From the NCBI GenBank assembly GCA_024679955.1, contig JAILCQ010000030.1, forward strand, positions 50,030-114,029: a stretch of 64,000 nt of DNA, read 5' to 3'. The notes beneath the pieces are model-generated. The model was given only the letters and a program-made list of their open reading frames with translations, was not told the origin of the DNA and did no database searches. Position 1 is the first letter of the stretch; every line of letters begins with the position of its first letter. This document shows, piece after piece, positions 46,983 through 64,000 of this stretch. The stretch comes from Bacillota bacterium. Its GTDB lineage: Bacteria; Bacillota; Dehalobacteriia; UBA4068. Position numbers and translations under genes: made by a program.

Positions 46983-48023
46983 TCATATATCATCCAAAAA
47001 CATGCGAAAGGCCGTGGGCAAAGCGTAGCTTTGCCGCATTTCCGCCAAAGCGGCCCAGGCAAACCCTTCCGCCATATGGGCGCACTGTATATGATAGCAG
47101 ACCATTTGCCAACGGATATGGGTAAACACATGTTCTTTGTGGATCTCCCGCTGCATAAGCGAAGGCTCTACGCCCCAGGACGCCGCCTGGGCCAAAGCCG
47201 CCGCCGGCGACAAAGTCCCCGCCACATTGGGCAACTGCCATAGGCCGGACAGCAAGCCTTCTCCCTCCCGTCTTTGCAGCGCCACTTTGTCCTGGCAGCG
47301 CAATAAAAACACGGTGCGTTGTTCCAGCCGTTTTTCCCGTTTGGGCAGGCGCGCCGGCAACTCCGCCACGGAGCCCCGGGCATAGGCCAGGCACAGGCCC
47401 TGCACGGGGCAAAGGGCGCATTTGGCAGATTTGGGCGTGCAAACCGTGGCCCCCAATTCCATCAGCGCCTGGGTAAAATCGCCGCAGGCCCCCGCCGGAT
47501 ATACCGCTTCCAATTCCTGCTTCACCTGCTTTTTTACCTGGGGCATATCCACCGGCCTATGGTCGTCCGTCATCCGGGCCCGCCAGCGCAATACATTGCC
47601 GTCCACCGCCGCCACCGGCAATTCAAAGCAAATCGAGGCAATGGCCCCGGCGGTATAGGGACCCACGCCGGGCAAGGCCAAAATGCCTGCGTAGGTTTGT
47701 GGAAAAACGCCGCCGTTTTCCCGGACGATTTGCCTGGCCGCCTTCTGCAGATTGCGGGCGCGGCTGTAATAGCCCAGGCCTTCCCATAGTTTCAACACCT
47801 GTTCTTCCTCTGCTTGGGCCAAAGCGAAAACCGTAGGCAGCGCCGCTAAAAAACGCCGGAAATAGGGACGTACCGCCTCCGCCCGGGTTTGCTGCAGCAT
47901 GATTTCCGATACCCAGACAGGATAGGGCTCCCGATTCTGCCGCCAGGGCAGATCCCGGGCGCATTGGCGATACCAATCCACCAATATGGACGCTGCTTTT
48001 TGATCTTTCGCATAAGATTCCAT
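46983..48023 (-). CDS. mutY: A/G-specific adenine glycosylase
   Basis: RDLPWRQNREPYPVWVSEIMLQQTRAEAV, LPGVGPYTAGAIASICFELPVAAVDGNVLR, C-X6-C-X2-C-X5-C cluster, NUDIX-like C-terminus. Confidence 0.95.
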   Translation of the reverse strand: MESYAKDQKAASILVDWYRQCARDLPWRQNREPYPVWVSEIMLQQTRAEAVRPYFRRFLAALPTVFALAQAEEEQVLKLWEGLGYYSRARNLQKAARQIVRENGGVFPQTYAGILALPGVGPYTAGAIASICFELPVAAVDGNVLRWRARMTDDHRPVDMPQVKKQVKQELEAVYPAGACGDFTQALMELGATVCTPKSAKCALCPVQGLCLAYARGSVAELPARLPKREKRLEQRTVFLLRCQDKVALQRREGEGLLSGLWQLPNVAGTLSPAAALAQAASWGVEPSLMQREIHKEHVFTHIRWQMVCYHIQCAHMAEGFAWAALAEMRQSYALPTAFRMFLDDI

Positions 48024-60133: not shown

Positions 60134-60185
60134 GGGGGTGCACCGCCTGTTCTGGGGGTGCATTTCGAACGGCAGGGGCGCGCTG
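60134..60185. repeat. Short array of ~20-bp direct repeats (GGGGGTGCA core), array A
   Basis: GGGGGTGCA at 60134 and 60154, degenerate GGGGCGCGC at 60175 (period 20-21 bp). Confidence 0.6.
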
Positions 60186-60652: not shown

Positions 60653-60734
60653 GGCACGATTTGATTTAATCTGATAAGAAATAATGAAGAGAGCTATTTT
60701 ACATCAACAAAGGATGTTTTACAACAAACAAAAC

Positions 60735-60761
60735 GCCGCTGTAGGGTTGCTCCGCAGCGGC
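60735..60761. terminator. Hairpin flanking the left side of the Mrr module
   Basis: GCCGCTG-TAGGGTTGCTCCG-CAGCGGC. Confidence 0.45.
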
Positions 60762-60871
60762 AGAAACAATAGTGGAGATAGACCACATGCTGCCTGTACA
60801 ATTAAGAATTGAAAATAAGCTCCTAAAGCTGTATTATAAAGACACACTACTGTCTGGCAGGTGAACGCGCT

Positions 60872-61858
60872 ATGGTCGAAGAAGGAAAAATGTGGGGAAT
60901 CCACACGCAGGATGATTACCTTTTCCTGCACGGTAACGTTATTGCAGTCGGCTGGAAAGAGATGGGGGATCTGTCTACCATTGCGCCAGACCGAGAATCC
61001 TTCAGGGAAAAGTATGCCGTCGCATACCCTGATTCCAAAAAGGGTAGCATTTCCACAAGCTCAGGAATGCTCTATCGCTTCGTCCATGAGATGCAGCTTG
61101 GTGATTATGTGGTGTTTCCATCAAAGACTGACCGAATGGTGAACATTGGCGTAGTCGACGGCGACTATCAGTATGTGCCCGATGCTGTTGAATACAAGCA
61201 GCAGCGCCGAGTCAAGTGGATTAAGCACCTCCCGCGCACATCATTCTCTCAAGGAGCGCTGTATGAAATAGGGTCATTCATGTCCCTCTTCACCGTAAAG
61301 AACTATGCTGATGAGTTTCTTGCGGCTCTCGACAAAGGATTCAAGAAAGAGCTTCCAGTCGAGGATGAAAGCGTTGGCGCAACTGCAGAAGAGATAGTCG
61401 AAAGCACAAAGGATTTCATTCTCAAAGAAATCAGTCGTCAGCTCAAGGGCTATGATCTTGAAGAGTTTGTGGCGGATCTGCTGCGGGCGATGGGATATAG
61501 GACGACAGTGTCTCCTCATGGCGGTGATAACGGCATCGACATCACAGCATATAAGGATGAACTACCGCCTCGAATCCTCGTTCAGGTTAAAAGTCAGGAT
61601 GGGGATATAAAGGAAACGACCATCCAATCGCTTAAGGGAGCAATGCGCGAGGGAGATTATGGGCTGTTTGTGACGCTGTCTAACTATACGAAAAACGCGA
61701 AGAAGTACCTCGAAAACACACCGATCATCCGAGGAATCAACGGAACAGAATTGGTAGAGCTTGTTTTGAAGTATTACGGGCAGCTCAGTGAAAAGTATCA
61801 GAAAATGATACCGCTAAAAATGGTTTACATACCCGTGACAAGAGAGCAAGAAGAATAA
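60872..61858 (+). CDS. Mrr-like (type IV) restriction endonuclease with N-terminal EVE/PUA-like region
   Basis: C-terminal EEFVADLLRAMGYRTTVSPHGGDNGIDITAYKDELPPRILVQVKSQ (PD-(D/E)xK Mrr core); N-terminal MWGIHTQDDYLFLHGNVIAVGWKEMGDL...GDYVVFPSKTDRMVNIGVVDGDYQYVP. Confidence 0.82.
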   Translation: MVEEGKMWGIHTQDDYLFLHGNVIAVGWKEMGDLSTIAPDRESFREKYAVAYPDSKKGSISTSSGMLYRFVHEMQLGDYVVFPSKTDRMVNIGVVDGDYQYVPDAVEYKQQRRVKWIKHLPRTSFSQGALYEIGSFMSLFTVKNYADEFLAALDKGFKKELPVEDESVGATAEEIVESTKDFILKEISRQLKGYDLEEFVADLLRAMGYRTTVSPHGGDNGIDITAYKDELPPRILVQVKSQDGDIKETTIQSLKGAMREGDYGLFVTLSNYTKNAKKYLENTPIIRGINGTELVELVLKYYGQLSEKYQKMIPLKMVYIPVTREQEE

Positions 61859-61867
61859 GGAGCCGAT

Positions 61868-62539
61868 ATGCACCCTCTTTCACGCCAATTCGCAGATTAC
61901 TGCGAGGGTCACTTTGATCTCGAACATCAAGTGAATTATCATTATCAATCGCTGCCAATTTGCCTTATAGACTGTGTCTATTCACTGCGCGCAAAATATG
62001 AGTCAATAACGCTGCCTGTCGTACAGCGTTATGCTGATGCCTATATGGGTGGTGACAGATACGCATCAGGAGACACCATTTCTGCGCTTATTGAGCGGAT
62101 CGATAGTTGCGGTGGTTCTTGTGCTTTTGCCGAGAAGGTCATAAAAAACCATCAAAAATTGGGGCGTTCTCTGACTCCAAAAGAGGAAGCAATATATCAA
62201 CTGGCCCATTATTTGAAGCTGTTACAGATAGAAACGCTGGAGGATTTCCAGCAGTTTGAGTCACCAGAACTTTTAGAGGTTGTCATTCGTGCTGTGAAAG
62301 GTATCTCCGATGCCGGGGCCAACTACTTGTTCATGCTTGCTGGCGACCCGAACAGAGTGAAGCCGGATGTCCACATCCACCATAGCATTGTTGATGCCTG
62401 TGGAAGAGATGTATCAAATGAAGAGTGCCAGGCCCTATTTACAGAAGCAGTTGAATTACTAAAGCCCAAGCACGAGGGGCTGACCGTCGCTGCGCTTGAT
62501 AATACAATCTGGCGCTTTTACTCAAAAGCAAGCATATGA
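61868..62539 (+). CDS. HhH-GPD (endonuclease III/glycosylase fold)-like protein, partner of the Mrr protein
   Basis: AVKGISDAGANYLFMLAGDPNRVKPDVHIHHSIVDACG aligns with HhH and VDTHxxR segments of the Nth/MutY fold; starts 9 bp after the Mrr stop. Confidence 0.6.
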   Translation: MHPLSRQFADYCEGHFDLEHQVNYHYQSLPICLIDCVYSLRAKYESITLPVVQRYADAYMGGDRYASGDTISALIERIDSCGGSCAFAEKVIKNHQKLGRSLTPKEEAIYQLAHYLKLLQIETLEDFQQFESPELLEVVIRAVKGISDAGANYLFMLAGDPNRVKPDVHIHHSIVDACGRDVSNEECQALFTEAVELLKPKHEGLTVAALDNTIWRFYSKASI

Positions 62540-62548
62540 AGTCTAATT

Positions 62549-62625
62549 GAACGATTTCCCCTCTGTGAGAACGATACCCCTCAAATTGAACGATACCCCT
62601 CTGTGAGAACGATTTGTCTCGGAGG
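62549..62625. repeat. Four ~19-20 bp direct repeats with GAACGAT core
   Basis: GAACGAT at 62549, 62569, 62588, 62607 separated by CCCCTC-type spacers. Confidence 0.75.
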
Positions 62626-62650
62626 GGAAGAATAGAAAGTTTACATAACA

Positions 62651-62696
62651 GCAAAACGCCGCTGCGGAAAGAGCTCCGTGGCGGCGTTGCTTTTCA
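62651..62696 (+). terminator. Hairpin/terminator downstream of the Mrr module
   Basis: GCAAAACGCCGCTGCGGA ... CTCCGTGGCGGCGTTGC then TTTT. Confidence 0.65.
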
Positions 62697-62765
62697 GTAT
62701 TTATAGTAAAAATGTTCTAAAATAGCTGGATTACGACGTTCTCAGAACATTTTCAGGCAAAAGAA

Positions 62766-62802
62766 AAAGGCAGGTAATTCTATCAAAATTACCTACCTTT
62801 TA
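62766..62802. terminator. Hairpin, left arm similar to the 59080 hairpin
   Basis: AAAAGGCAGGTAATT-CTATCA-AAATTACCTACCTTTT. Confidence 0.5.
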
Positions 62803-62837
62803 TGGAAAGGAAATCATATATGGATAGAATTAGCGCA

Positions 62838-62912
62838 GGGGGTGCAATTTCATCGTAAGGGGGTGCATTTTGCCCTAGAGGGGGGGTGCAAATTGAATCT
62901 GAGGGGGATGCA
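62838..62912. repeat. Array of ~21-bp direct repeats (GGGGGTGCA core), array B
   Basis: GGGGGTGCA at 62838, 62859, 62882 and GGGGGATGCA at 62903. Confidence 0.7.
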
Positions 62913-62992: not shown

Positions 62993-63028
62993 CATGAACG
63001 ATACTCCAGAATTGGTGTATCGTTCAAC
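62993..63028. repeat. 36-bp palindromic repeat, copy 1
   Basis: CATGAACGATACTCCAGAATTGGTGTATCGTTCAAC, identical to 63423-63458; 12/13 paired stem around a 4-nt loop. Confidence 0.85.
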
Positions 63029-63270: not shown

Positions 63271-63375
63271 GCTTCTAAATCTACAGTACCACAGTCCGAC
63301 GAATCTGTCAAGAGCAGGGCCTCGTCGTCCCTCATCGACCATATCACGGATATGGAATATCTGGCGGCGGCAGAG
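63271..63375 (+). repeat. Linker repeat, copy A
   Basis: 105 bp matching 63896-64000 at 101 positions by eye; encodes SVKSRASSSLIDHITDMEYLAAAE. Confidence 0.9.
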
Positions 63376-63422: not shown

Positions 63423-63458
63423 CATGAACGATACTCCAGAATTGGTGTATCGTTCAAC
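63423..63458. repeat. 36-bp palindromic repeat, copy 2
   Basis: Identical to 62993-63028. Confidence 0.85.
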
Positions 63459-63463
63459 AGAAA

Positions 63464-64000
63464 ATTTACTTTGGGACAATTCCGTCAGACCTTGCACAAA
63501 AAATATATGAAGAGACCGGAATAAACGTCGAAAACTATAATTGCACTTTAAGAGCGTCGGAGATTCGAAAAATACTATTAGGAAAACACGGGAATCAAGA
63601 AACCGAATCAAAGTATGGACAAAGAGCAGTTACGCCCGAAGATATACTGAATATTCCTCTCGTAATCCAAAGCCCTGATAGTATTCAACTGTCACCTAAA
63701 CTGTTCCAAGGAAAACCGGCAATTCTTTTTTCAAAGACTATTAACGGCAGGACAACTGTTGTTGCCTATGTATCAAAGCCGCACATGGATCTTACTGTTC
63801 AGACCATGTATTCAGGAGCAAAAAAAAGAAGCCTTGCCACTACGCCAAGTGAGGATAACCTCTTCTCGCAAACGTCCGAAACGTTTAGTGGTACAGCTTC
63901 TAAACCTACAATACCACAGCCCGGCGAATCTGTCAAGAGCAGGGCCTCGTCGTCCCTCATCGACCATATCACGGATATGGAATATCTGGCGGCGGCAGAG
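63464..64000 (+). pseudogene. Start-less PBECR-like nuclease cassette (runs off the right edge)
   Basis: Frame 63464+: IYFGTIPSDLAQKIYEETGINVENYNCTLRASEIRKILLGKHGNQETESKYGQRAVTPEDILNIPLVIQSPDSIQLSPKLFQGKPAILFSKTINGRTTVVAYVSKPHMDLTVQTMYSGAKKRSLAT...; in-frame TGA at 63425 closes it upstream. Confidence 0.6.
63896..64000 (+). repeat. Linker repeat, copy B (continues past the window)
   Basis: See copy A. Confidence 0.9.

Follow-up and report, generated by a model that had tools for sequence, protein, structure and literature searches.

Base excision was established as a form of antiviral immunity only in 2024, with the DNA glycosylase Brig1, which in structure is best matched by uracil-DNA glycosylases (PMC11078745). 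Another defence glycosylase, Brig3, is found with a partner, BapA, has a mixed alpha/beta fold and was compared with AAG (PMC13160076); with these glycosylases, partner genes at the same locus widen the range (PMC11078745; PMC13160076). Type IV systems include EVE-PD(D/E)XK and EVE-McrB (Bell et al., 2020; PMC7641849). Among candidate systems, the PDC-S02 class is common in rumen genomes, with 2,715 annotations (PMC13356809); the papers on PDC-S02 report counts, and a mechanism was not found in them. A search of open-licence papers found none linking an HhH-GPD domain to defense islands. Here we describe a locus in a 64,000-nucleotide stretch of DNA from a Bacillota bacterium (hereafter, the window), where a putative nuclease of the PDC-S02 class (ORF1) is followed by a protein of the HhH-GPD fold (ORF2). 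Their features are collected in Table 1.

Table 1. Features of the ORF1-ORF2 locus (positions in the window).
Feature	Position	Strand	Basis
Mobile cassette common to L002 (MAG of another species), 2,111 bp	60695..62805		Identity, flanks, GC
Sigma-70-like promoter, TTGAAA-17-TATTAT, upstream of ORF1	60809..60837	+	Consensus scan, 10/12; shuffles give such matches too
ORF1, 328 aa, PDC-S02-type modification-dependent nuclease candidate	60872..61858	+	PADLOC, Foldseek, dN/dS
Putative PUA-like reader domain of ORF1, aa 1-160	60872..61351	+	Broad alignment
Mrr-type PD-(D/E)xK nuclease domain of ORF1, aa 189-297	61436..61762	+	Mrr_cat and invariant catalytic residues
AAGGAG ribosome-binding site of ORF2, overlapping the ORF1 stop codon	61857..61862	+	Read from the sequence
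ORF2, 223 aa, HhH-GPD-fold protein, putative monofunctional DNA glycosylase	61868..62539	+	AlphaFold, Foldseek, PHROG
HhH hairpin VKGISDAGANY of ORF2, aa 143-153; OGG catalytic position without Lys	62294..62326	+	Alignments
KPD motif of ORF2, putative catalytic Asp D167	62360..62368	+	Alignments; matched to MjaOgg IIDRHIL
GAACGAT/CCCCTC repeats at the cassette 3' end	62542..62613		Recurring at further R-M or ATPase loci of this genome
Intrinsic-terminator-like hairpin 3' of ORF2, 14-bp stem	62655..62688	+	Sequence scan, folding

Both genes lie on the plus strand, separated by 9 bp, exactly as the initial annotation had placed them. Judged from the sequence, the layout resembles a single transcription unit, so that the two genes would be co-transcribed; the stretch around the terminator-like hairpin (62650-62695) folds at -28 kcal/mol (z = -5.5). 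The pair forms part of a recently moved cassette that was transferred between gut bacteria of different species as one block. The block aligns without gaps to positions 2828-4938 of L002, a rumen Ruminococcaceae MAG, at 95.4% identity, and the flanks of the two copies are unrelated on both sides. Since the L002 flanks match the window's own genome only in short, scattered pieces (68-93%), the two genomes belong to different species, and the block either moved recently or was received by both from a third source. Its GC content is 45.8%, compared to 55.4% for the window and 61.8% for the L002 flanks. Between the two copies, dN/dS is ~0.026 for ORF1 and 0.13 for ORF2, i.e., both genes are under purifying selection. 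A plasmid search found no copy of the cassette.

The 3' repeat module of the cassette (window 62542-62690) recurs in the same genome at L152 (2530-2678 and 6171-6228) and L153 (2513-2618). On contig C34 it brackets a gene pair (N6-methylase/351-aa), with 88.6% identity over 149 bp on one side, and on contig C39 it flanks a 267-aa AAA ATPase gene. The repeat family thus appears to be associated with accessory or defence cassettes and may reflect a repeat-bounded cassette mechanism; presumably, the cassette end repeats resemble IS21-type ends. Repeats of a second kind, GGGGGTGCA, occur with ~22-bp spacing at window positions 60154 and 62838-62907, on both sides of the cassette and a YgjV gene; the block common to L002 does not include these repeats, which look like transposon ends. 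Toward the contig end, repeated coding segments (63271-63375 and 63896-64000, 105 nt, 96%; 62993-63028 and 63423-63458, 36 nt, 100%) resemble an array of alternative protein ends, and the contig stops inside a repeat.

ORF1 is already known as a defence candidate: the PADLOC profile for PDC-S02 (PDLC04819) covers residues 6-324 with 456.8 bits (E = 1.1e-137), and nothing essential differs from that class. The Mrr-type nuclease domain proposed in the initial annotation for the C-terminus was recovered by Pfam Mrr_cat (E = 2.4e-25), with D223 and Q238-V-K240 invariant across the relatives, making the nuclease assignment strong. The N-terminal 160 residues gave no Pfam or PDB sequence match, whether searched as a single sequence or as a broad alignment; W28, Y99, R112 and W116 are invariant in the latter. 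An AlphaFold model of ORF1, built from only eight close sequences and of moderate confidence (pLDDT 69.6), found MspJI as its top PDB match over almost the whole chain (Foldseek, E = 1.3e-9), followed by AspBHI and, weakly, a YTH domain. ORF1 resembles MspJI and AspBHI in joining a putative reader domain to an Mrr-like nuclease, but it had no detectable sequence match in the PDB, and its N-terminal domain comes from an unnamed, probably PUA-like family of its own. The protein is best read as a predicted PUA-type reader domain joined to an Mrr nuclease, which would make it a putative type IV-like (modification-dependent) nuclease. Of the earlier description of the N-terminus as EVE/PUA-like, the moderate model favours the PUA-like part, whereas membership of the EVE family specifically is not established; what ORF1 has in common with the EVE systems is the idea of the architecture (Bell et al., 2020; PMC7641849). 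As in EVE-McrB (PMC7641849), the domain is also fused to AAA ATPases, being carried at the N-terminus of such proteins in Rhodococcus, and many larger frames begin with a match to it, as would be expected of an exchangeable specificity module.

Relatives of ORF1 have restriction-modification neighbours of their own. HsdS and HsdM lie upstream of the relative in L026 and a ResIII protein upstream of that in L028, while an N6 methylase (L027), an HsdR-like protein (L065) and, on the Butyrivibrio plasmid pCY186, M and S subunits lie downstream. PDC-S02 nucleases at 60-79% identity (L026, L027, L028, L065 and L066) are located in or adjoin type I restriction-modification operons, suggesting that, in many cases, PDC-S02 does not stand alone as a single-gene system.

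ORF2 had no match to any Pfam, NCBIfam or PADLOC family, and its only library match was PHROG 29694 (function not assigned). A single-sequence PDB search returned pentatricopeptide matches as whole-sequence scores only, with no stretch passing alone, and these were judged to be noise. The AlphaFold model is confident (pLDDT 93.8, pTM 0.90; alignment of 14 sequences), and all 50 PDB matches listed for it by Foldseek are HhH-GPD proteins, with a probability of 1.00 and TM scores of 0.52-0.62 on the query. They include hOGG1, CacOgg, Mag2, MagIII and MjaOgg, and are only 11-19% identical to ORF2. Against viral structures, the model gave only weak matches to giant-virus glycosylases. A profile of 18 diverse family members also found archaeal OGG in the PDB, marginally (E = 0.0027-0.016); in the alignment, the KPD motif falls on IIDRHIL of MjaOgg and an LD..IW motif on its C-terminus. 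The modelled fold, strongly supported in this way, is that proposed in the initial annotation, whose finer points also hold: KPDVHI corresponds to the motif of the catalytic Asp, the hairpin lysine is absent, and the sequence contains no C-terminal cluster of FeS cysteines. K165 and D167 are invariant in 18/18 family sequences, whereas the position of the OGG catalytic lysine is Ala/Gly in ORF2 and no lysine is conserved there among the 18. ORF2, if an enzyme, would therefore be of the Asp-only, monofunctional type, and glycosylase activity is likely.

ORF2 belongs to an unnamed HhH-GPD-fold family. With OGG1, OGG2, MagIII and Mag2 it has the fold in common, and with MjaOgg the catalytic Asp and LD..IW motifs, but it differs from these enzymes in the unconserved lysine, the low identity, the lack of a Pfam HhH-GPD score and an accessory, mobile distribution. 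An ordinary Nth/MutY copy was considered and rejected, since the genome has separate HhH-GPD proteins and an hhalign comparison of the family profile with clostridial Nth was not significant, which places the family far from housekeeping Nth. One ordinary, MutY-like HhH-GPD gene lies elsewhere in the window (47511-47912, minus strand; G000:C43:97540-97941), and such repair proteins are present in 19 of 21 relatives. The proposed logic of ORF2, a small glycosylase excising phage-modified bases, is that of Brig1 and Brig3/BapA, yet homology to Brig was rejected on fold, ORF2 being all-helical HhH-GPD while Brig1 is uracil-DNA-glycosylase-like and Brig3 mixed alpha/beta (PMC11078745; PMC13160076).

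Relatives of ORF2 were found at 14 clostridial or Erysipelotrichaceae-type loci, on plasmids of Bacillus, Rhodococcus, Paenarthrobacter and a Tenericutes strain, and in the jumbo phages PBS1, AR9 and Goe21, where they are annotated as 'DNA glycosylase' or 'N-glycosylase'. The phage proteins PBS1 gp306 (L019) and AR9 g110 (L025), of PHROG 29694, are of the same family as ORF2; these uracil-DNA phages encode them in the uracil-DNA glycosylase inhibitor region, the PBS1 gene being six genes from that of Ugi, and, unlike ORF2, they have no nuclease partner. Scans of viral contigs with ORF2 or divergent relatives found nothing besides the AR9 copy. The occurrence of the family in PBS1 and AR9 indicates that it is not exclusively a bacterial defence, and its presence in phages with uracil in their own DNA suggests that it does not excise uracil indiscriminately. 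In the Tenericutes plasmid record (L018, 3257-6994), the gene lies between those of the phage terminase large subunit and the portal protein, so that the record is that of a phage-plasmid or carries a prophage. In L080 (4660-5673), a family member with an extra C-terminal domain of ~110 aa adjoins a JetD/SMC (Wadjet-like) pair.

The neighbours of ORF2 relatives vary. On the upstream side they include an N6_Mtase at a distance of 17 bp (L008), a weak GIY-YIG match at 20 bp (L012) and, two genes away, a PDDEXK_4 nuclease (L010); in L006, a GIY-YIG protein and an MmeI-like methylase follow downstream. Other loci have C5 methyltransferases (L013, L082), an SNF2-HNH protein (L081) and a type ISP restriction-modification enzyme (L021); about five loci have housekeeping neighbours only. 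Among the neighbours of the 13 closer loci, PADLOC recognised models such as MTase_II, REase_II, PDC-S26, AbiEi and UzuA, and at 13 random loci REase_III, PDC-S03 and matches judged generic. Enrichment of defence neighbours was not significant (5/13 versus 2/13 random loci, P = 0.19), and with the wider family pooled it reached 9/18 loci (P = 0.05), in a small sample whose neighbour categories were assigned by hand and whose random loci came from genomes other than those of the ORF2 loci. An enrichment of ORF2 relatives near defence genes is thus suggestive, not established.

Partners were cross-checked among relatives of ORF1 at 49-79% identity and of ORF2 at 41-64%. Apart from the near-identical cassette of L002, no ORF1 relative was seen beside the 11 relatives of ORF2 whose upstream DNA was long enough (L014 and L015 being too short upstream to judge well), and ORF2 was absent beside all PDC-S02 relatives examined. 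Across 399 genomes of the phylum, near-full-length ORF1 occurred in 13 and intact ORF2 in five, and both only in the window's own genome. Conserved pairing, whose absence the initial annotation had listed among the refuting outcomes, was therefore not found beyond the window and L002; adjacency in divergent genomes was not observed, and a conserved, obligate pair is rejected. Of the modified-DNA nuclease plus glycosylase-like unit proposed there, what stands is a putative type IV-like nuclease beside an Asp-only HhH-GPD protein, moved as one block. Because the pairing is not conserved, any coupling of base excision to nuclease action is conjectural and weakly supported, and the two genes may simply be stacked.

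We favor, at about an even chance, a small, horizontally moved defence cassette in which two enzymes are stacked against modified foreign DNA. The PUA-like domain of ORF1 would read a modified base and the Mrr domain cut nearby, as in MspJI. ORF2 would most likely flip out an aberrant or phage-modified base and hydrolyse it via Asp167, without a lysine, and the abasic sites left behind could stall phage replication, as with the Brig1 and Brig3 glycosylases of unrelated fold. The genes would be co-transcribed because they share a cassette, and their products probably work side by side, without forming an obligate complex. For ORF1, we count toward such stacked defence the PDC-S02 match (457 bits), the Mrr_cat domain, the MspJI-like fold, the restriction-modification neighbours and the exchange of the N-terminal domain onto AAA ATPases; for ORF2, the HhH-GPD fold, the OGG profile match, the invariant Asp, the restriction-modification neighbours, carriage on plasmids and phages, and its rarity (5 of 399 genomes) relative to ordinary HhH-GPD repair proteins. 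The 2.1-kb co-transfer, the low dN/dS of both genes and the overlapping ribosome-binding site count for the stacked cassette as a unit. Against it we count the unconserved pairing, the non-significant enrichment, the loci with housekeeping genes only, the Nth comparison, the moderate ORF1 model and the ORF2 relatives of phages PBS1 and AR9. On balance, a defence role for the cassette is plausible.

The same operon-like layout, ribosome-binding site, joint transfer and purifying selection could also be expected of one coupled machine, the model of the initial annotation, in which ORF2 takes out the modified base and ORF1 acts on the abasic site or its surroundings by recognition or cleavage, each needing the other. 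However, the relatives of ORF1 and ORF2 live apart, so that neither family depends on the other, and we consider such a machine unlikely. At the other extreme, the two may have no function in common and be neighbours by chance within an accessory cassette bounded by repeats: its end repeats also bracket an unrelated restriction-modification pair and flank an ATPase gene in this genome, and the pairing is absent elsewhere. The overlapping ribosome-binding site, the single promoter and terminator, and joint conservation under purifying selection argue to the contrary and leave chance neighbours a doubtful explanation.

Two further alternatives concern ORF2 itself. Its closest folds are the repair enzymes OGG1, MagIII and Mag2, and several of its loci lie amid housekeeping genes, as might be expected of a mobile repair glycosylase that removes an oxidised, deaminated or alkylated base and is a bystander beside the type IV nuclease. 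Since the family is rare, patchy and found on plasmids and phages, unlike housekeeping HhH-GPD repair genes, and many of its loci hold restriction or modification genes, we treat the repair bystander as possible but somewhat doubtful. HhH-fold homologues that bind lesions without excising them are known, e.g., Mag2 of Schizosaccharomyces pombe, which has a non-catalytic role. Given that Mag2 is among the Foldseek matches, that ORF2 lacks the catalytic lysine and that the restriction or modification neighbours of its family differ from locus to locus, ORF2 could instead be a sensor that flips bases but is catalytically dead or does not excise them, or else a regulator controlling or restraining the restriction enzymes beside it. 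Invariance of the Asp in 18/18 sequences, which a dead sensor would have no need to retain, makes this quite unlikely.

In a broader reading, ORF2 would represent a widespread glycosylase family of the HhH-GPD fold that excises phage-modified (or rival-DNA) bases, adding a second structure to that of Brig as a basis of base-excision immunity; uracil-DNA jumbo phages would use it as a weapon on thymine-type DNA and, in this cassette, it would work with a PDC-S02 nuclease. Taken whole, this is rather unlikely. A mobile HhH-GPD-fold family, present on plasmids, in uracil-DNA phages and next to restriction genes that change from locus to locus, would widen a mechanism established with an enzyme of a different fold (Brig1; PMC11078745) to a major repair-glycosylase fold, and PDC-S02, a common candidate, would gain a partner with a measurable effect.
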